A DNA stretch of 64,000 nucleotides, taken from Chitinophagales bacterium. GTDB lineage: Bacteria > Bacteroidota > Bacteroidia > Chitinophagales > LD1. Position numbers and translations under genes: made by a program. The stretch is taken from contig JAEUUZ010000017.1 of the NCBI GenBank assembly GCA_016786765.1, positions 1 through 64,000 on the forward strand, in the 5' to 3' direction. Shown piece by piece: positions 6,533 to 49,626 of the stretch. The notes below the pieces were generated by a model. It was not told the DNA's origin, searched no databases, and saw only the letters and a list, made by a program, of their open reading frames with translations. Position 1 is the stretch's first letter. Every line of letters begins with the position of its first letter.

Positions 6533-7519
6533 TCAGTTAACCGGGGTTTCGTTATTTTGCATCGTTAATGCGATAAGGTATGATGTAAACTGTTTGGCCA
6601 TATTGTGTTTGCCTTTTGGGTCGAGGAATAGGAAATAACCCGGTGCGTTGCATTCTAGAAAGTAGTAGCCGTTTTGTTTACTTCGAATAATATCAAAACA
6701 ACCAAATAAGATGTCCATGGCTTTCATATAGGCTAGGCAGTTTTGGGCCACGGGGAAGTTAGGGATGTGGGTGTAATGCAAGTCGTTCAAGGATAAGCGC
6801 CAATCAAAACCTTTTGCGCCATCAATGCGGAAAGCCATTACACAATCTCCAAAAACAGTAACGCGATATTCTTCCATTCCTTCAATTTGTTCTTGAAAGT
6901 GATGGATATGGAGTTCAATTTTATTCAAACGAATGGCGGCTAATAACGGTTTATCTATTTTACGTACTGTGGCAAAAAACTGTTGCTTGTTTTTGGTGAT
7001 GTACTGCGAGTTAGAAACGGGTTTGTAAACAGCATTGGTGTGCCATGGTTTGTTTAAGTATGAAGCTGCGCTATTAGCGATAACTTGATTTGGCAAAGCA
7101 AAGCCACATTGAACAGCCACTTTTTGTTGATAGGCTTTATGTCCGGCAATGTAATGTTTTATAGGATGGTTTAACACGGGTATTGTATCCGGCAAACAAG
7201 AGAGAATGGCAATCAATGTTGAATAATATTCTTCATCGATAAACTCGCGCAAATGCGGTTCAAACATTTGGTGCGTATTTCCGGGTAAAGCATACCTCGA
7301 CCACCAAACAGCACCAACAGTAGATTCAGTAATCGATGCACCTGTTTTACGGTGTGTGAGTTTGAACGTTGAATGTCCCGGATCAATTTCAATCGCATAC
7401 CTATCGTGAAAACGATCGGCATTTAGTCTGAAAAACGAAACCTTGTTTTTGACTAAATGCCGATGTATGCTATCGCACTCGCTATCCGCAGAGGACGAAA
7501 TAATAAGCAGTTGTTTCAT
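6533..7519 (-). CDS. ATP-grasp ligase of the MvdD/graspetide-maturase type
   Basis: This 328-residue protein matches, by motif order, ATP-grasp enzymes that crosslink peptide precursors (MvdC/MvdD, graspetide synthetases). It has VWWSR at 71-75 (family VWxRR-like). NHP at 117-119 is followed by HKAYQQKVAVQCGFALP, matching the family pattern of Lys, Gln and a GFxxP turn. It also has YKPVS, YRVTVFGD, GFDWR and a near-C-terminal LECNAPGYFLF, the family's E-x-N-x-x-G metal/ATP end. These ligases activate Asp/Glu carboxylates with ATP and join them to Ser/Thr or Lys side chains. It lies 18 bases behind the Lys/Glu repeat protein on the same strand, a possible substrate. A general ATP-grasp role cannot be excluded. 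Confidence 0.75.
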   Translation of the reverse strand: MKQLLIISSSADSECDSIHRHLVKNKVSFFRLNADRFHDRYAIEIDPGHSTFKLTHRKTGASITESTVGAVWWSRYALPGNTHQMFEPHLREFIDEEYYSTLIAILSCLPDTIPVLNHPIKHYIAGHKAYQQKVAVQCGFALPNQVIANSAASYLNKPWHTNAVYKPVSNSQYITKNKQQFFATVRKIDKPLLAAIRLNKIELHIHHFQEQIEGMEEYRVTVFGDCVMAFRIDGAKGFDWRLSLNDLHYTHIPNFPVAQNCLAYMKAMDILFGCFDIIRSKQNGYYFLECNAPGYFLFLDPKGKHNMAKQFTSYLIALTMQNNETPVN

Positions 7520-7537
7520 GCAGAAAAGCGTGCCATG

Positions 7538-8011
7538 CTATTTTTCTAGATTTATCTTTTGCGCGTTCTCCTTTTTAGCTGCTTCAAGTTTTGGTTTTTT
7601 TTGTGCGGCAACAGCTTTTGTTGCTGTTTTTTTCACCGGCTGTAAGGCAGCGGCAGTAAGCGATTTGCTTTTAACAGCTGTTTTCTTTTTTGGCTTAACA
7701 GCAGCTTTTGGCGACTTTATGGCTTTCTTTTTTGCCTCGTCTAGTTTTGCCTTTTTGGGTGCCACTTTTTTTGAAGCCAACTCTTTTTTCTTGCGTTCTT
7801 CCAATATCGGTTTTTTGGTGGCTACTTTACTTTTTTGAACTGCTTTTTTTACCGGAGCTTTTTTCTTGGCTTCTTCTTTCACCGCTTTCTTGGGCGCTAC
7901 TTTTTGTTTTGCTTTTTTAGCAGATTCCGATTGTGCTTTCTTTACCGGAGCCTTCTTAACGTTAGCCTTCTTTTTGGCTTCTTCTGATAATGCTTTTTTT
8001 GTTGTTGCCAT
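7538..8011 (-). CDS. Lys/Ala-rich protein with six acidic repeats (H1-like or possible graspetide precursor)
   Basis: A 157-residue, highly basic, low-complexity protein. A motif K-K-[AP]-x-x-[DE] followed by a small residue and a Lys pair recurs six times, starting at residues 5, 24, 41, 66, 86 and 138, each with the acidic residue exactly five positions later (E10, E29, E46, E71, D91, E143). Between repeats are KKAPV or KVAPKKA linkers. Bacterial histone-H1-like proteins are Lys/Ala/Pro-rich and bind DNA, which is the default reading. Fixed acidic positions, and an ATP-grasp gene 18 bases downstream, make a crosslinked-peptide substrate an open alternative. Confidence 0.8.
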   Translation of the reverse strand: MATTKKALSEEAKKKANVKKAPVKKAQSESAKKAKQKVAPKKAVKEEAKKKAPVKKAVQKSKVATKKPILEERKKKELASKKVAPKKAKLDEAKKKAIKSPKAAVKPKKKTAVKSKSLTAAALQPVKKTATKAVAAQKKPKLEAAKKENAQKINLEK

Positions 8012-8896: not shown

Positions 8897-11023
8897 CTAT
8901 TTAATCAAACCCACTATTCGCCCTACATTCCAAATGTTCATAAAGAATGCGCTGTAGCGATTGCGCTTGGCTTGTTGCTCTTCGCGATTCCAAAAATGGA
9001 GTTGACTAGCCGGATATAAGTAGCCAAAGTGATAGGCTGTGTGATCCCAACGTTTTCGGGCAATACGGTCGGTAGGATAACGGTATTGCGCTTCACGGGC
9101 GGTGACAATTTCTTGTGCACGTTGTCGTATTGAACCGGCATCAGCGAGATGATGTTGCGCTGCTGCCTTTTGTTTTTTTGATTTAGCGGAGTTAAGCGCT
9201 ATCAAATACCGAAGTATGGCTGCACGGTGAAATCCACGGTAGGCGGTAATTTCAAGTCCATCGATTAGTTCGTTGCTTACCACATCTTTGTCGCTTGCAT
9301 TTATCCGCATGGCACGACTCAACTTCAATGCCTTATGGGAAAAGCTGTCTAAACGAAGCAGATACTTGTTTTGAATTTCGCTCAATTCATTGGCTGTAGC
9401 CTTGTTGCGAATGTATTTGTACGAAAGTTTCGGACGTGGATGATATTCATTGGCTAGGGCTTTGATACCAATTTCATCGGTGATGGTCATGGCCGTCATC
9501 CATTGCATGAGCGAACTGTCTTTTAAATATTCTTGTTGCAGATTCAACATGTTTATGAATGACTTGTGTTCCTTTGCCGGCAAGAGTTCTTGTGCATACA
9601 TGTCCGGAAAACGTTGCTGTTTTTCACCATTAAAAGTATGTTGCCAACTCCATCGCGCAATACTCCAATCGATTAGCCAATAGCCCCATTCCCATCCCGA
9701 TGAAAAGGTAAGATGTCCGGGAATATGATGTGCTGCACAGCTATCGATATCGGTTAAGCGGGCTTTCAAATACGGCAAAAGTAACATGGGTACCGACACA
9801 TCAAAGGTAATCCAGTAGGCGCTTTCAGGGTAGTACCAGGTTTCGCGTTTTTGATGTTCAGCCAAAAGAAACCGATACATGTGTTGTTGGTTTTCGTTTT
9901 CATATACCGGTGCATGGGGTTTCGACATGTCGTAAAACATCACCGTATGCGCCATTACACCACGTTCTTTATCGAGCGCTAACGATGTGCTATCCCAAAC
10001 AAATTCATTTTTGGCTTTTGTATTTTTCGCTTTGTGTTGCACTACATGTTGTCTTCCCATCAACTTAGTATGCGAATTGTCTTTCAGCCATTGAATCACG
10101 AATTGGCGTTGCTGTTCCTTTTTCTTTCTATTGCCGCTGATGAATTCTGCAGTAGAAAACTCCATGTTAATCATATCCCAATTGGCTTTATTTAGCCATG
10201 CAAGATTTGCAGCAATTTGCTTTTTTTTATTGATGGGCGAAGTATACAATTGAAATGTTTTCTGCTGTATCATATGCAGCGAAAGATCAACACCGGCAAG
10301 CAATCCACGATGATGTACATAATCAGTAATGTTTTTAGCGTGGTCGATCCAAACGCGTTTATCAATGCTGTTCAATAAACAAAATTCAAAATAATTTTGT
10401 CCGTTTCGCGTAAGCCAATTGATGTATTCTTTCACATCATTCAAGGCATTCGGTAATGTGCCATCGTGCAGTTGTTCTGTGAGTTCCAACGGATGTTGGG
10501 TATGGAGATGAAAACCGTTTTTATCGAATAATGCTTTACTTTCCCAAGTGAAGTTTTCAGTAAGTGGCCATTGTTTAAACTGCGGAACGAAGGTGTTGCG
10601 CGGATGATAAAATTTGAAGCGTAACTTTTCCTGCAACAAGCCATAAAGTCCGAAACTAATGCCTTGCCACGAATCGGCAGAAAGCGAGAGCAGAAATTTA
10701 TCGCCCCATTTCTCTTGCTTCCAAGCATAATCGTGTCGCGGATAATGTTGGTAAGGAAATTGTGCAGCAGCAGAAAAAGTAGTAGGAAGTGAAGCGGATG
10801 CTTGATTTGCCTCCGGCAAGAAAATTTGAACAGATGCTGAAGGATTATTTAGGGCTACTTCGCAGGCGCAGGCTTCTTGTAAAAGACTGCGAACATCAGT
10901 AATGGTAATAGCTGTAATGCTTGTATCTAAAAGCGATTTAGGGGCATTGATAGAAATACTGCATTGGGCGAATAATGTTGAATTAGCCCAAAGTAGCGAG
11001 GCGAGTAGCAAAGCGTTTTTCAT
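8897..11023 (-). CDS. secreted protein with glycosidase-like N-terminal domain, activity unknown
   Basis: A 708-residue protein with a signal peptide ending near residue 19 (LFAQ). Residues about 20-150 resemble the non-catalytic N-terminal domain before TIM-barrels in alpha-glucuronidases and GH20-like enzymes: a DSWQGISFGLYGLLQEKL helix leads into a KFYHPRN strand. The next section (DVKEYINWLTRNGQNYFEFCL, then ITDYVHHRGLLAGVDLSL) fits alternating barrel strands and helices. No clear acid pair can be named. There is no T9SS tail. The gene lies 43 bases after the OmpA-family gene and may be cotranscribed with it. A polysaccharide-directed role is inferred, not shown. Confidence 0.6.
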   Translation of the reverse strand: MKNALLLASLLWANSTLFAQCSISINAPKSLLDTSITAITITDVRSLLQEACACEVALNNPSASVQIFLPEANQASASLPTTFSAAAQFPYQHYPRHDYAWKQEKWGDKFLLSLSADSWQGISFGLYGLLQEKLRFKFYHPRNTFVPQFKQWPLTENFTWESKALFDKNGFHLHTQHPLELTEQLHDGTLPNALNDVKEYINWLTRNGQNYFEFCLLNSIDKRVWIDHAKNITDYVHHRGLLAGVDLSLHMIQQKTFQLYTSPINKKKQIAANLAWLNKANWDMINMEFSTAEFISGNRKKKEQQRQFVIQWLKDNSHTKLMGRQHVVQHKAKNTKAKNEFVWDSTSLALDKERGVMAHTVMFYDMSKPHAPVYENENQQHMYRFLLAEHQKRETWYYPESAYWITFDVSVPMLLLPYLKARLTDIDSCAAHHIPGHLTFSSGWEWGYWLIDWSIARWSWQHTFNGEKQQRFPDMYAQELLPAKEHKSFINMLNLQQEYLKDSSLMQWMTAMTITDEIGIKALANEYHPRPKLSYKYIRNKATANELSEIQNKYLLRLDSFSHKALKLSRAMRINASDKDVVSNELIDGLEITAYRGFHRAAILRYLIALNSAKSKKQKAAAQHHLADAGSIRQRAQEIVTAREAQYRYPTDRIARKRWDHTAYHFGYLYPASQLHFWNREEQQAKRNRYSAFFMNIWNVGRIVGLIK

Positions 11024-36037: not shown

Positions 36038-36739
36038 TTATACTTTAATTCCTTTTTTAGTCATACCGATTATAGCACCGTCTTTCATTTCAATCACACG
36101 GTCACTATTCTGCGCAAACTCCTCATCGTGCGTAACGGCTATAATGGTTTGGTTTTGCACCGAAGTTAACTCGCGAAAAATTTCAAACACATTTTTGGTG
36201 TTGTTCGAATCCAGATTTCCGGTGGGTTCATCGCCCATAATAATGTCCGGATCGTTAATCAATGCTCTTGCAATTGCTACACGCTGTTGTTGTCCGCCCG
36301 AAAGTTTTGAAGTGAGTTTAGTGGCGTATTCGTGCATATCCAACTGTTTCAATTTCGTATATGCGCGATCTTCAATTTCGCTCATCGAATATTTGCCCAA
36401 CTTCTGTGCCGGAATCATCACGTTTTTCAAGGCTGTAAACTCAGGCAACAAAAAGTGGAACTGAAATACAAAGCCAATGTGTGCATTTCTAAATCGAGCT
36501 AATTCATTTTGCGATAAACCGGTAACACGTTGTCCGCTAATGTCTATTTCGCCCTCGTAGTCGGTATCTAAGGTGGAAAGTAAATAGAGTAAAGTTGATT
36601 TACCACAACCAGATTTCCCAACAATAGATAAGAATTCTCCACGTTTCACTTCCAAATCGATTTGCTTGAGCACTTGAAATTTTTCAGGCTCGTAGAAATA
36701 CTTGGTAAGTTGCTTTGCTTTTAAAACGGTGTCTTCCAT
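36038..36739 (-). CDS. ABC transporter ATP-binding protein, MacB/LolD type
   Basis: A 233-residue ATPase with Walker A GKSGCGKST, Q-loop VFQFHFLLPEF, signature LSGGQQQRVAIARAL, Walker B IIMGDEP and the switch His (THDEE). It powers the MacB-like permease encoded just upstream (1-base gap). Together with HlyD and TolC proteins it should form a tripartite exporter of an amphiphile or peptide. Confidence 0.95.
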   Translation of the reverse strand: MEDTVLKAKQLTKYFYEPEKFQVLKQIDLEVKRGEFLSIVGKSGCGKSTLLYLLSTLDTDYEGEIDISGQRVTGLSQNELARFRNAHIGFVFQFHFLLPEFTALKNVMIPAQKLGKYSMSEIEDRAYTKLKQLDMHEYATKLTSKLSGGQQQRVAIARALINDPDIIMGDEPTGNLDSNNTKNVFEIFRELTSVQNQTIIAVTHDEEFAQNSDRVIEMKDGAIIGMTKKGIKV

Positions 36740-36740
36740 A

Positions 36741-38000
36741 TTATCCTCTTAAAATTACTACCGGGTCAACTTTACTGGCATTCATAGCAGGAATTAAACC
36801 TGCAAAAAAAGTAGTTACCATCCCAAATCCAAGTCCAAAAGCGTAGTGGTACCAATGGAACGTAACCGGATAATGGGTTATGGCAATCATGTCCGATTTC
36901 GGGAAAGGCAAGTTAAACACCAAGGTCGAGAGCGCATAGCCGAGCATAAGGCCGGTAGTTGCTCCTAAGAAACCGATAATCACCGATTCGGTAAGAAATA
37001 TCTGCCGAATATCTTTTCCTGCAAAGCCTTGTGCTTTCAATATGGCAATGTCTTTCAATTTGTTTTGAATGGTCATGCTCATAATGTTGTAGATGCCAAA
37101 ACCGGCAACAAGCAGCAAGGTCAAACTCACCACAATGGTCATTACATTTCGAATTAATATAGAAGCCATAGCCGAAGAATTAGACGTTTCCCAATCGTCA
37201 CATTTATAGCCATACTTTGCCGAAAATTCTTGAGCAACTGCTTTTGAGGTATTATAATCTTTCAGCTTAAGACCAATATCGGTGATATATTGATTGTCTT
37301 TGCCTAGTAACTGCTGCACTTTGCTCACACTTACATAACTTCTAATTTTATCTACAGCTCCCATACCAAATTGAAAAGTGCCTACAACTCTAAATCGCAT
37401 GGAGGTGCCTTTGGGTGAAGTCAACATCACCATATCGCCTATTCGTACATTGAGAGTGTTCGCTAAGCCTTGTCCCAGTAATATTCCATTGTCTTGTGTA
37501 AGCAGGTTTTCGATTTTTCCGGTTTTCATTTTATCTACAAGTCCAGAAAGTTTGGCTTCTTCAATAATGTTTACGCCACTTAATGTACCGTTAATTTGCA
37601 CCGGACCGTTGTTGTAAAATACTTGCGTTGATAATTGAGGAGCTACAGAAGCCACTCGTTTATCGCGTTTCAAATCAGACATAATCTCATTCGCATTCTT
37701 AATATTGGGATTGATATCTTTGGGGCGCGGATGATGGACTACGGCAATTTCCTTCGTACTGTCGATAAAATCGTTAACCAACATATGCGAGTAGTCGGTT
37801 TTGATATCGTTGTAAATACGTACATCGGGAGTGGAAGAGAGCAATGTGTCTTCCAAAAATTCGTTGAAACCGGTCATGAATCCAATCATTAGAATGTACA
37901 TGCCAATGCCAAAGGTTACACCTAACATCGCCACAAAGGTCTGCCGCTTTTTGGCTAACAAATGCGTTTTAGCAATTTCGATATTTACACCTAAAGCCAT
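36741..38000 (-). CDS. ABC transporter permease, MacB/FtsX-like
   Basis: 419 residues with the MacB plan: helix 1 (residues 18-40), a periplasmic domain of about 240 residues, then three C-terminal helices from about residue 285 (TIVVSLTLLLVAGFGIYNIMS, SVIIGFLGATTGLML). The FtsX-like core signature IQNKLKDIAILKAQGF precedes the second helix. It shares a single base with the HlyD gene and belongs to the same operon. Confidence 0.93.
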   Translation of the reverse strand: MALGVNIEIAKTHLLAKKRQTFVAMLGVTFGIGMYILMIGFMTGFNEFLEDTLLSSTPDVRIYNDIKTDYSHMLVNDFIDSTKEIAVVHHPRPKDINPNIKNANEIMSDLKRDKRVASVAPQLSTQVFYNNGPVQINGTLSGVNIIEEAKLSGLVDKMKTGKIENLLTQDNGILLGQGLANTLNVRIGDMVMLTSPKGTSMRFRVVGTFQFGMGAVDKIRSYVSVSKVQQLLGKDNQYITDIGLKLKDYNTSKAVAQEFSAKYGYKCDDWETSNSSAMASILIRNVMTIVVSLTLLLVAGFGIYNIMSMTIQNKLKDIAILKAQGFAGKDIRQIFLTESVIIGFLGATTGLMLGYALSTLVFNLPFPKSDMIAITHYPVTFHWYHYAFGLGFGMVTTFFAGLIPAMNASKVDPVVILRG

Positions 38001-39100
38001 TATTTAATTTTTGGATATTCAAGTTCATCAGATGCTTTAATGCCTTCTAGCACTTCTACATATTCCAAATTTTGCAATCCTTTTTTGATGGTAGTTTTAG
38101 TACCTCCTTTTACTTGCACTTGATTGTTGTCTTGAATGATATCTATAGGAATCAACAATGCATTGTCTTTTTTATGGATGACGATATTTGCTTCCACTGA
38201 TGAGTGTGAAAACTGGAATTGATAGGTGCTGTCAAATTCCGCTTCCACTTTAAACGATTGGTCGTTTTGGTTCATGAGCGGATAAATCTTCGATACTTTT
38301 GCTTTGTAAATGTTATCGGCAGTAGCATCAATTTTTACAATAATTGCTTGTCCGACTTTTACTTTTTCTATGTCTTGTTGATCAACATTCAACTGTAAAA
38401 TTTTATGGTCGCCATTACCAATCATTGCGAGTAAATCATTTCTGCGAACGGCTTCTCCAATTTCTTTATACACATCATATACTAGGCCTTTCATTCGGCT
38501 CTTCACGGTAAAATAACCCAGATCTGAACCCGATGATGTTAGCTGACTCTGCGCATTTTTAGCCTCTACACGCAATTGATCGCGAGTACGTTTGTAGTTT
38601 TCTTTAGCCGAAAGCAACTCGTTCTGCGAAGTTTGATAGGTGAGGGCAATACGATCGTAGTCAACACGCGCAATAGCATTGTTTTCCAACAAATTCGTGT
38701 AACGTACAAAGTTCATCGAATCGTTGGTGCATTTGGCTTGTGCAGTGTTTACGCGAACTAGTAAATCGCGAAGAATAGGAGAGTTGTCGCCCAAATTCTG
38801 CGATGCAAAATCAAATGCTGTTTGCGAAGCGGCATAGCGTGCCGAAGATACATCGCTCTGTATTTTGAATAATGGCTGATCGAGCACTACGGTATTTCCC
38901 GCATCTACATTGCGTTCTGTGATGTAGCCATCGGCTAAGGCATATACCTTGTATTCATCTTTCGGCACAATGTAGCCTGAGGCATAAACCGCTTCAGTGA
39001 TTGATTTTCGAACCGGCTTAACTGTTTTTGATTTATTACAACCTGCAATTAGAAATACTGCAATTGCAGGAGAAATGAGCATCCATTTTTTCATTTGCAT
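38000..39100 (-). CDS. periplasmic adaptor (HlyD/RND type) lipoprotein
   Basis: 366 residues (the second ATG at 39094 would give MKKW as start). A lipobox (FLIAGC) near residue 20 anchors it. A biotin-lipoyl-like hairpin around DAGNTVVLDQPLFKIQSD, then a helical hairpin (about residues 85-180) and a beta-barrel domain are visible. It links the MacB-like permease to TolC. The start overlaps the TolC stop by one base. Confidence 0.92.
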   Translation of the reverse strand: MQMKKWMLISPAIAVFLIAGCNKSKTVKPVRKSITEAVYASGYIVPKDEYKVYALADGYITERNVDAGNTVVLDQPLFKIQSDVSSARYAASQTAFDFASQNLGDNSPILRDLLVRVNTAQAKCTNDSMNFVRYTNLLENNAIARVDYDRIALTYQTSQNELLSAKENYKRTRDQLRVEAKNAQSQLTSSGSDLGYFTVKSRMKGLVYDVYKEIGEAVRRNDLLAMIGNGDHKILQLNVDQQDIEKVKVGQAIIVKIDATADNIYKAKVSKIYPLMNQNDQSFKVEAEFDSTYQFQFSHSSVEANIVIHKKDNALLIPIDIIQDNNQVQVKGGTKTTIKKGLQNLEYVEVLEGIKASDELEYPKIK

Positions 39101-40404
39101 TACTGATTTACGATGGCTTGAATTTTATTTTTCACGGCATAATAGCCCGAGATTTTTTCGAGATATTGTTGTTGCGCATTGAGCAATTCGGTATACACAT
39201 TCAATAGTTGGTCGAAAGGTAAAATCTGATTGCTGTATTTGTAATTGGCTAAAGTATAGTTGCGTTCCGAAAGCTGTAACAATTCAGCTACCATGCTGAT
39301 ATCAGCCACCGATTTTTGGTAATCCAAACGAAGGGATTCATTGTCTTTCGAAATATTGTGGAGTGTATTATCGAGGTCGATTTTAGCCGACTGGTAATTC
39401 AAATCTGCACGTTTTACGGCAAATGCTTTTTGTCCGCCTCCAAAAATCACTGTTTCAATTTTCAATCCAATAGCGCTTGCTTTGAACCACTTTTGATCAG
39501 AGAATTTATCGCTTTGCGACTGCCAATTATAATTGCCAAAGAGATTCACATCCGGCAAGTATTTCAATCCTTCTTTTGTACGATTCATCTTGGCTACTTC
39601 AACCCGCATTGCAGCTACCTTGGCTTGTGTGCGTTTCGATTGGTCGTTCAGAACAGCCAAGTCGGCTTCTAGGGATTGTGGCACAGCTATACTTTCGGTA
39701 ATCACTAATTTTTCGGTTGTAGGCAAATTCACCAGTACTTTCAATTCATTTAATGCTTTATCGGCTAGCGTTTGGCTTTGCGACAAATTCAAGGCATTGC
39801 GAAGATGCTGTGTTTTTGTGCGGTTCACTTCCAATTCATCCACAAGCCCGTTGCGGAAACGCGTAGCTGCAATTTTCTTCAGTGAATCGCTCACGCTCAA
39901 GTTCTTTTCAACAAACAATAAATTCGCTTTGGTAAGTAAGTAGTTGTAGTAGGAAGAGGCTAATATTGTTTTCAGTTGCTCTTCATTGAGTGAGGCACTA
40001 AGTTTGGCAATTTCCATGTTCTTTTTGGCGATGAGTACTTGCTCAACACCGGCCGCGTTCATTACATTCCATGAAGCATCAAAACCGGGTTGCATCAAAT
40101 ATTTTCTGCCGAATTGAAAGGCTAGGGAGGTGTCGGGCCGACCAATAAATGTACCCGGCACAATGGTGGTAGGACGAATCAAGTTATCGGTAAGGTTAAA
40201 GGATGCACGCACCACCGGCAAAACTGCACCAATGCTGCTGTAATAATTTTGGCGTTCTATCAATTCGTTAATGGCAGCTCGTCTTATATCCGGATTGTTT
40301 TTGATGGCATAGTCTGCATATGCTTGAAAGTTGTTGAAGGTTAACTGGGCATGCATTGTATGCGAAAGGAACAACGATAGCAAAAGAAGAAAGTAACGAG
40401 TCAT
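39100..40404 (-). CDS. TolC-family outer membrane efflux protein
   Basis: 434 residues with a signal peptide (LLLSLFLSHTMHAQ) and two homologous helical hairpins typical of TolC. The first contains AYADYAIKNNPDIRRAAIN, and the second SEFNYTLANYKY-type repeats. Family motif NPDI is at about residue 37. First gene of the efflux operon, transcribed from a promoter between 40405 and 40597. Confidence 0.95.
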   Translation of the reverse strand: MTRYFLLLLSLFLSHTMHAQLTFNNFQAYADYAIKNNPDIRRAAINELIERQNYYSSIGAVLPVVRASFNLTDNLIRPTTIVPGTFIGRPDTSLAFQFGRKYLMQPGFDASWNVMNAAGVEQVLIAKKNMEIAKLSASLNEEQLKTILASSYYNYLLTKANLLFVEKNLSVSDSLKKIAATRFRNGLVDELEVNRTKTQHLRNALNLSQSQTLADKALNELKVLVNLPTTEKLVITESIAVPQSLEADLAVLNDQSKRTQAKVAAMRVEVAKMNRTKEGLKYLPDVNLFGNYNWQSQSDKFSDQKWFKASAIGLKIETVIFGGGQKAFAVKRADLNYQSAKIDLDNTLHNISKDNESLRLDYQKSVADISMVAELLQLSERNYTLANYKYSNQILPFDQLLNVYTELLNAQQQYLEKISGYYAVKNKIQAIVNQ

Positions 40405-40568
40405 AGTAAACCGCTTTTAATCGGGGGCGAATTTAGATAAAGAAAAGACGTGTAACTAATAATGCGATTGATAAATTAGACAAACTGATTTTTGTCACAT
40501 AATTAGCTAAAATTCAATGCATTTGTGTTGCTTTTTTGGTCCAGCGATGCTTTTGGCAAGGATTTTGG

Positions 40569-40576
40569 TAGTTTTG
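40569..40576 (+). promoter_or_regulatory. candidate -7 element of the coiled-coil protein gene
   Basis: TAGTTTTG fits TAnnTTTG, 21 bases before the ATG at 40598. TTTG words lie upstream, but with spacers of 13 or 30 bases instead of about 19-23. It still supports the start at 40598 over one at 40517. Confidence 0.35.
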
Positions 40577-40597
40577 CATGAACAAAAAAAAGAAACA

Positions 40598-41737
40598 ATG
40601 AAAAAAGTAATTTTTACCCTCAGCACGTTAGCGATTTCTGTAGGATTATTCGCACAAATCGCTCCGATTTCAGATGTAAAAAAGACCATGAGCAAAGGCG
40701 AAAACCCTGCGTTAGAGGTATTGATTAATAAAACAACTTCGGCTGATGTAGCAAAAGTTTTTGAAGCGAAAACCAAGGATTTTAAAGGTAAATTCATCAA
40801 GCCGGAAAAAGGAAATGTGGAGTATTTTATTGATGATGCAAAAATTGCAGCTATCAGCGATCAACCCGTTGATATATATGCATATTTCTTGCAAGAAGGA
40901 GAGAATGTTCGTTTTACAAGTTTTTACAGTGTAGGAGGTTTGTATTTTAGTCCGGCAAATACTACGCAATACAACAGCGCAAAAGGAATTGTAGAAAGTG
41001 TTTATAAACAAGTGTTGTTCGATCAATTTGATGCAAAAATCAAAGAAGAAGCAAAAAAGCAAAGCGCTATTGAAGACGCAGTAAAAGGATTGGAGAAGGA
41101 TAAAGACGGATTGCAAAAAGACATTAAGAAGTCGAACGATGTAATTAGTAAAAGCGAAGGTGAAATTGCGCAAGGTGAAAAAGATAAAGCAAGCAACGCC
41201 ACAACAGTAGAAACACAAAAAGCTGCTGTTGCAAAACAAAAAGAAGAGCTAGCAAAATTCGACAGAAAGGCTTTAGAGACAGAAGTAAAAGCGTTGGAAA
41301 GCGATAAAAAGGGGGTGGAAAAAGAAATGGAGAAAGCGTCAAAAGAGATTGGTGCTAAAACCGCTGAAATCGAAAAGTTGAAAAATGAAATTGCAACACT
41401 TACCACACAAGTAGAAAGCAACAGAAAATCAATTGACGAGAAAACAAAGTTAATTGCCGAGAAACAAGCAACCATTAACAACAATAACCTAGAGGAGAAA
41501 GAGAAGGCGTTGAAAGAAGCACAAAAGCAACAAGAAAAGCTGGAAAAAGATGGTGAGAAAATTGTGAAAGACATTGAAAAAAACAAGAGTGCAGTTGTCG
41601 ACAATAAATCTAAAATTACAACTGCTGAAGCAGGGATCAAAGACAACGAAACTAAACTAGCAGCTAAAAAAGCCGAGCTGGATGCGCAAAAAGAAGTACT
41701 AAACAAACTCAAGGAAGAGCAAGCGAAATATAAATAA
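40598..41737 (+). CDS. exported coiled-coil protein, paralogue of the 48934-49626 gene
   Basis: 379 residues from ATG 40598. A signal peptide (FTLSTLAISVGLFAQ) is followed by a globular domain of about 110 residues and then a coiled coil from about residue 150 to the end, rich in Lys, Glu and Ala. The globular domain aligns with the 230-residue protein at 48934-49626 (MSxG, KDxKGK, EKG and an ISxxP pattern in both). Probably periplasmic or outer-membrane associated. Function unknown. A strong terminator follows. Confidence 0.75.
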   Translation: MKKVIFTLSTLAISVGLFAQIAPISDVKKTMSKGENPALEVLINKTTSADVAKVFEAKTKDFKGKFIKPEKGNVEYFIDDAKIAAISDQPVDIYAYFLQEGENVRFTSFYSVGGLYFSPANTTQYNSAKGIVESVYKQVLFDQFDAKIKEEAKKQSAIEDAVKGLEKDKDGLQKDIKKSNDVISKSEGEIAQGEKDKASNATTVETQKAAVAKQKEELAKFDRKALETEVKALESDKKGVEKEMEKASKEIGAKTAEIEKLKNEIATLTTQVESNRKSIDEKTKLIAEKQATINNNNLEEKEKALKEAQKQQEKLEKDGEKIVKDIEKNKSAVVDNKSKITTAEAGIKDNETKLAAKKAELDAQKEVLNKLKEEQAKYK

Positions 41738-48933: not shown

Positions 48934-49626
48934 TTACTTGATATTGTTGAGTTTTTGCTGCACAGTGTTCAGCACGGCATTCTGTTTTGCAATTACATCT
49001 TTTTGTTTCTCTTGGTTGCTTTTCGCGGTACCGATATTTGCTTCTTCTTCTTTAATTTTCTTTTCTCGATTAGCAATTTCGACTTTGTGATCTTCAATGT
49101 TGCCTTCTGCCTTTTTTTGGTCTTTCACAAAACCCTCGAGTATTTTTTGCTCAGCTTTAGCTTTATCTTTTTCGTTTTCCAATTCTTCTTTTACCGCTTG
49201 TTTATATTGTTCAATGGCAAAATCTTTTAAATACTTGTTGACTGCAATGCTTTTGTCGGGTGTAAGTTTTGACGACACAAAACTTTCACCGTCTGCCACC
49301 CAAATGCTCACGGTTACGCCTTCCGATGATTCTACAAATCGCCCAAAAATAGAAAAGGGCATACTGGAGATGTTTTTGTTTACCGCACCCAATAGACTGA
49401 TTTCGCCCTTTTCGTCAGTCAATTTTCCTTTCGCATCTTTCTTGATGTATTTTTTAAAATCGTTCACTACATCTTTTAGTTTTGCTTGTGGAATATCTAC
49501 CACGTATGCATTCCGGGTGCCGATGCTCATTTCTTTTTCTTGCTCAATAATTTTTAATTCTTTCTGTCCGAAACTTAAAAAGGGAAGCAATGCGAAAAGT
49601 AGGAATGTAAATGGCTTGAATTGCAT
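48934..49626 (-). CDS. exported coiled-coil protein, paralogue of the 40598-41737 gene
   Basis: 230 residues. Signal peptide (LLFALLPFLSFGQ), a globular domain of about 110 residues, then a coiled coil of about 90 residues (KKAEGNIEDHKVEIANREKK). It aligns with the 379-residue protein at 40598-41737 but has a much shorter coil. Only 6 bases separate it from the ABC permease gene, so it may be a partner of the exporter. Function unknown. Confidence 0.7.
   Translation of the reverse strand: MQFKPFTFLLFALLPFLSFGQKELKIIEQEKEMSIGTRNAYVVDIPQAKLKDVVNDFKKYIKKDAKGKLTDEKGEISLLGAVNKNISSMPFSIFGRFVESSEGVTVSIWVADGESFVSSKLTPDKSIAVNKYLKDFAIEQYKQAVKEELENEKDKAKAEQKILEGFVKDQKKAEGNIEDHKVEIANREKKIKEEEANIGTAKSNQEKQKDVIAKQNAVLNTVQQKLNNIK

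Follow-up and report, generated by a model that had tools for sequence, protein, structure and literature searches.

A two-gene operon in a Chitinophagales genome encodes an ATP-grasp ligase of the graspetide type together with a lysine-rich repeat protein, and the ligase probably modifies that protein, because a bacterium of another family carries the same pair. Both genes lie on the minus strand of the window (the whole 64,000-nucleotide stretch that was analysed), the lysine-rich gene upstream and the ligase gene downstream, with an 18-bp gap between them. The best explanation, to which we give about an even chance of being right, is a rare graspetide-like operon in which a divergent ligase has the lysine-rich protein as its substrate, perhaps acting through i,i+4 Lys-Glu/Asp lactams. 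The features of the locus are as follows.

6533..7519, minus strand: graspetide-type (MvdD/MdnC/CdnC-like) ATP-grasp ligase, 328 aa (PF21068, profile scores, AlphaFold2 model with Foldseek search, invariant columns)
7538..8011, minus strand: lysine-rich repeat protein, 157 aa, predicted substrate (composition, gene context, counterpart at L004:184-855)
7970..7999, minus strand: repeat unit 1, KKALSEEAKK, at the same position (residue 6 onward) as KLKMEEQKK in the L004 protein
7913..7942, minus strand: repeat unit 2, KKAQSESAKK, by repeat-unit pattern
7862..7891, minus strand: repeat unit 3, KKAVKEEAKK, by repeat-unit pattern
7787..7816, minus strand: repeat unit 4, KKPILEERKK, by repeat-unit pattern
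7727..7756, minus strand: repeat unit 5, KKAKLDEAKK, by repeat-unit pattern
7640..7663, minus strand: conserved non-repeat segment SLTAAALQ (SLTAASLQ in L004), candidate recognition site
7571..7600, minus strand: repeat unit 6, KKPKLEAAKK, by repeat-unit pattern

The unit consists of exactly these two genes. A convergent gene directly after the ligase encodes a metallohydrolase that matches metallo-beta-lactamase-fold families and not PF00144. Promoter and terminator searches at the locus, along with one promoter pattern search, returned nothing informative. Elsewhere in the window, a 708-aa exported-looking protein (8897-11023, minus strand) has no Pfam or NCBIfam match, and two separate exported-looking proteins (40517-41737, plus strand; 48934-49626, minus strand) each have a Lys/Glu-rich, coiled-coil-like second half. 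An operon of ABC transporter, membrane-fusion and TolC-like proteins (36038-40404, minus strand) lies about 28 kb off and is probably unrelated to the ligase operon.

Graspetide ligases use ATP to activate Asp or Glu side chains, which they link to Ser, Thr or Lys. The initial annotation had reported a ligase at 6533-7519 with such an enzyme's motifs, and both coordinates and motifs (VWWSR, NHPIKHYIAGHK, GFALP and ECNAPG) proved correct for the 328-aa frame. In Pfam, the ligase scores 41.5 bits against PF21068 (MvdD pre-ATP-grasp), above the gathering cut-off of 27. Every top-scoring NCBIfam model is one for graspetide maturases, led by TIGR04187 (136.6 bits, below its curated cut-off of 350); MvdC gives 98.7 bits (cut-off 425), MvdD 90.7 (cut-off 475) and the grasp-with-spasm model TIGR04192 49.3 (cut-off 230), so that none of the curated cut-offs of TIGR04184, TIGR04185, TIGR04187 and TIGR04192 is reached. 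The rimK_fam model yields 18.9 bits, short of its cut-off of 143.4. A confident AlphaFold2 model (mean pLDDT 90.1) has CdnC (7mgv) as its top Foldseek match in the PDB (E 6.5e-24), and ranks 1-31 are all graspetide macrocyclases, namely CdnC, MdnC, MdnB, AMdnB, PruB and PsnB, with RimK, LysX and ArgX ranking below them. By sequence, profile and fold, the ligase is thus a member of the graspetide-ligase superfamily that lies outside every named subfamily. Grouping with non-peptide ATP-grasp enzymes, which the initial annotation had named as one outcome that would tell against its reading, was not seen, and an identity as a RimK-type or other non-peptide ATP-grasp enzyme is ruled out by the profile and fold scores.

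Conservation also covers the active site. K166, Q209, R219, D239, R241, D276, E289, N291 and G294 (ligase numbering) are among the positions invariant across diverse relatives, and the DWR motif at residues 239-241 is conserved among them; the predicted active-site residue set is shown by this conservation to be intact. With the microviridin- and marinostatin-type macrocyclases MdnB, MdnC, AMdnB, CdnC, PsnB and PruB the ligase shares pre-ATP-grasp and ATP-grasp domains, DWR and fold, but its identity to them in structural alignments is only about 17-23%. Grasp-with-spasm (TIGR04192) and other Bacteroidota graspetide loci share its phylum and enzyme superfamily, whereas the window unit contains neither a SPASM protein nor a small precursor. 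In a tree of 55 ligases, the window ligase pairs only with the L004 ligase described below (support 100/100). The stem leading to the two is 2.9 changes per site long, and the tree settles this pairing and not the position of the pair among the other groups.

The 157-aa protein is 34% Lys and 20% Ala, carries a net charge of +42, and has no Gly, Cys, Trp, Phe, Tyr or His. As the initial annotation had noted, it lies 18 bases upstream of the ligase and contains the pattern KK[AP]xx[DE] six times; the copies, exactly six, are at residues 5, 24, 41, 66, 86 and 138. The expected mean is 0.48, and six copies were never reached in 5000 dipeptide-preserving shuffles. The full unit is longer, a ten-residue KK[AP]xx[DE]x[AR]KK, again in six copies where shuffles give 0.02. 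A single-sequence structure model, of low overall confidence (pTM 0.20), shows helices interrupted by disordered stretches.

Among 84,980 species genomes, a seed-based scan identified a single close relative of the ligase, at 57% identity, in a locus designated L004 from a Sphingobacteriales MAG. Its contig, the same as G065 of the genome search, comes from the same order as the window genome and from a different family. Directly upstream of the L004 ligase gene (884-1854), with a 28-bp gap, lies a gene (184-855) for a 223-aa protein that is 29% Lys. This unit, too, has exactly two genes and is followed directly after the ligase by a convergent gene. In the available assembly the N-terminal part of the L004 ligase gene is frameshifted from about codon 29 on, which could be an assembly error or a sign of a decaying gene; the remaining frame of 260 aa is intact. 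The co-occurrence check proposed in the initial annotation has one positive result: a single second locus, in another family of the same order, with the same pair.

The distribution of this pair is sporadic. Neither the other 29 genomes searched in the window genome's family nor the other five searched in G065's family contain the close ligase, and no further close copy came from samples of about 400 genomes drawn at each of the order, class and phylum levels (a second order-level draw was largely the same as the first). Viral, plasmid and phage searches found distant ligases only. In family relatives, matches for the two genes flanking the unit sit on different contigs. That so patchy a pair stays together speaks for a functional link, with the caveat that the conserved pairing is seen at only two loci. 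Proteins of this composition are also scarce in the samples taken, about 290 kb of each genome: among ORFs of at least 90 aa, at least 20% Lys is found in one of 224 in 288 kb of the window genome and in one of 209 in 293 kb of G065, in each case the protein next to the ligase. A chance neighbourhood of ligase and lysine-rich gene is unlikely, because the second lineage carries the same two-gene unit. The initial annotation had kept chance proximity to a histone-like protein as its plain alternative; it is not favoured by the L004 unit and the rarity of lysine-rich ORFs, and as a leading reading it was dropped once L004 showed the same arrangement.

The two lysine-rich proteins cannot be aligned end to end. 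BLASTP and gapped alignment gave nothing reliable, because of the low complexity of both sequences, and an ungapped BLOSUM score between them was not significant. The first 16 residues, compared without gaps (MATTKKALSEEAKKKA in the window protein, MAKATKLKMEEQKKMA in the L004 protein), are identical at 8 of 16 positions (p 0.003). Near the C-terminus of both proteins stands SLTAA[AS]LQ (p ~0.01 against dipeptide shuffles), with the last Lys/Glu unit some 13-15 residues after it in each; the C-terminal ends themselves are not conserved. As the alignments and the ungapped score gave no reliable signal, the proposed homology of the two proteins rests on the N-terminus, SLTAAxLQ and gene context. 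The exact pattern KK[AP]xx[DE], with six copies in the window protein, has none in the L004 protein. Of the graspetide-like system that the initial annotation put forward, then, the enzyme class is borne out by sequence, profile and fold and the pairing by L004, while its repeat motif fails to carry over to the second locus.

The looser pattern KxxxExxxK occurs six times in the window protein and seven times in the L004 protein, against 1.5 and 1.6 expected. Lys/Glu ion-paired helices also yield K-x3-E spacing, however, and the K-x3-[DE] enrichment of the lysine-rich proteins falls within the range of other charged ORFs of both genomes. Because those ORFs match it, the spacing alone is no evidence of crosslink sites, and KxxxE/D spacing was rejected as proof of them.

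These observations bear on a reading that we regard as quite unlikely, in which the lysine-rich protein is an ordinary H1/AlgP-like binder of a polyanion (DNA or polyphosphate), tied to the ligase only by regulation or by accident, and the substrate of the ligase lies elsewhere. Like AlgP (PMC9239181) and bacterial H1-like proteins, the window protein is Lys/Ala-rich, repeated, Pro-broken and basic; its composition, repeats and predicted helices and disorder fit such a role, its repeat spacing is typical for charged helices, and it has no leader or cleavage motif. It differs from them in its fixed acidic sites, its conserved SLTAAxLQ and the ATP-grasp ligase in its operon. Against a plain polyanion binder stand also the recurrence of the adjacency in another family beside a 57%-identical ligase, the status of both proteins as sole lysine-rich ORFs wherever the two genomes were sampled, the lack of anything else in the unit in either genome, and the missing ligase in other members of both families. 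Since neither unit holds any other gene, the lysine-rich protein is the only possible substrate within it.

Should the ligase act on this protein, it might do so by a chemistry other than Lys-Glu/Asp lactam formation, either attachment of free amino acids (RimK/LysX-like glutamylation) or Ser/Thr-acid links, for example within SLTAAxLQ; we judge this unlikely. RimK, LysX and ArgX share the ATP-grasp fold superfamily with the ligase and carry out carboxylate-amine ligation on proteins, SLTAAxLQ contains both Ser and Thr, which usually serve as acceptors in graspetides, and is better conserved than any other segment outside the Lys/Glu units, and the KxxxE spacing is not diagnostic. Profile and fold scores of the ligase for the amino-acid ligases are nevertheless clearly worse (rimK_fam 18.9 bits against 136.6 for graspetide maturases), the enzyme has the DWR motif and the MvdD pre-ATP-grasp domain, and RimK-type tailing might need conserved C-termini, which the two lysine-rich proteins lack.

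The closest parallel for lactam formation is corallotide, of graspetide group 15 (CorA/CorB/CorC/CorD, Corallococcus), in which CorB (TIGR04187) joins Lys to the Asp four residues on, across five KxxxD repeats in a precursor of 22 kDa (PMC13097080). The window protein resembles this large (~22 kDa) repeat precursor in being multi-repeat and in placing Lys four residues before an acid, as K[AP]xx[DE], in six repeats, and the corallotide maturase model TIGR04187 is the best-scoring model of the window ligase. It differs in that the window precursor is strongly basic, uses mostly Glu rather than Asp and comes from a Bacteroidota host, in that its linkage is only proposed, and in that the two-gene unit at either locus has no 2OG-Fe(II) oxygenase or beta-lactamase-fold partner. 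The chemical novelty expected in the initial annotation is accordingly weakened. A TIGR04187-type ligase that forms Lys-Asp (i,i+4) isopeptides repeatedly within one large precursor is already in the literature, and the proposed chemistry thus has precedent (PMC13097080); a basic H1-like substrate without leader, cleavage site or exporter would still be new.

Related ligase loci elsewhere also show repeat-bearing partners. In L007 (genome G091, same order), a 171-aa precursor (949-1464) and a ligase (1495-2478) lie about 30 bp apart. The precursor has six N-terminal KFx[DE]D units (KFIDD, KFRDD, KFLED, KFFDD, KFADD and KFAED), with Lys and an acid four residues later, the corallotide KxxxD spacing, in a Bacteroidota genome, and a helical-looking C-terminal part. 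The ligase, 31% identical to the window ligase, is the best-scoring distant ligase in the order, and no oxygenase was recognised in the 3.9-kb locus. In the Leptospira phage vB_LalZ_80412-LE1 (KF114876.1 56611-62567), a graspetide-type ligase annotated as RimK-like (L141:2188-3469) follows a 106-aa ORF that carries repeated TKTxxxxExDD-like motifs and is annotated only over its last ~37 codons; the arrangement resembles a multi-core graspetide cluster carried by a phage. L103 and L116 contain similar pairs of ligase and repeat ORF.

Large multi-core precursors are known, both in corallotide and among the long or large precursors of groups 34, 35 and 41 (PMC13097080), and the L007 precursor has its KFxDD repeats. 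The window operon could by analogy yield an ordinary secreted graspetide, with housekeeping proteases freeing a short stretch of the lysine-rich protein as its mature core, a reading that we hold to be very improbable. About half of known graspetide precursors have the leader motif Phhx(1,2)h and about half a GG-type cleavage site (PMC8939145). The leader motif has no match in either lysine-rich protein, a GG-type site is not present in the window protein, with no Gly at all, and neither two-gene unit includes a protease or exporter. Microviridin- and marinostatin-type precursors, by comparison, are Thr/Ser/Asp/Glu peptides with a leader helix.

For modification of the lysine-rich protein by lactam formation, we envisage the following course. 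Protein and ligase would be made from one message, as a self-contained operon, and the ligase would recognise its substrate through the few conserved non-repeat elements, the N-terminal unit and SLTAA[AS]LQ. Within the repeat units, side-chain carboxylates of Asp or Glu would then be phosphorylated by the ligase and attacked by the amine of a neighbouring Lys, the likeliest positions being i-4 and i+4 (K-xxx-[DE]-xxx-K). Because the K[AP]xx[DE] repeats share the corallotide KxxxD spacing, several Lys-Glu/Asp lactams per chain seem the most likely product, forming staples along helical segments with one water (18 Da) lost per link. Since the unit comes without leader or GG site, protease and exporter, a modified protein that stays in the cell is a likelier product than a secreted peptide. 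In its most specific form, which we consider tentative and somewhat unlikely, a graspetide ligase has been turned to a whole intracellular H1-like protein, placing multiple Lys-Glu/Asp lactam staples without leader, cleavage or export and so stapling the helices of, or crosslinking, a polyanion-binding protein.

Several observations weigh against lactam formation on this substrate. There are only two loci, the L004 ligase is frameshifted and KK[AP]xx[DE] is absent from L004; K-x3-E enrichment is no higher than in ordinary charged helices; and the substrate has neither the Phhx(1,2)h leader motif nor Gly. The net charge of the ligase is +5, whereas values for most relatives lie between about -3 and -20, so that the enzyme offers no electrostatic fit to a +42 substrate.

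A Lys-Glu/Asp (i,i+4) lactam is the constraint that chemists use for helix stapling, and the operon, if the proposed chemistry is true, would supply a natural enzyme for it. With the lysine-rich protein as its substrate, the ligase would carry graspetide chemistry beyond small secreted peptides to a large basic protein, one that probably remains inside the cell.
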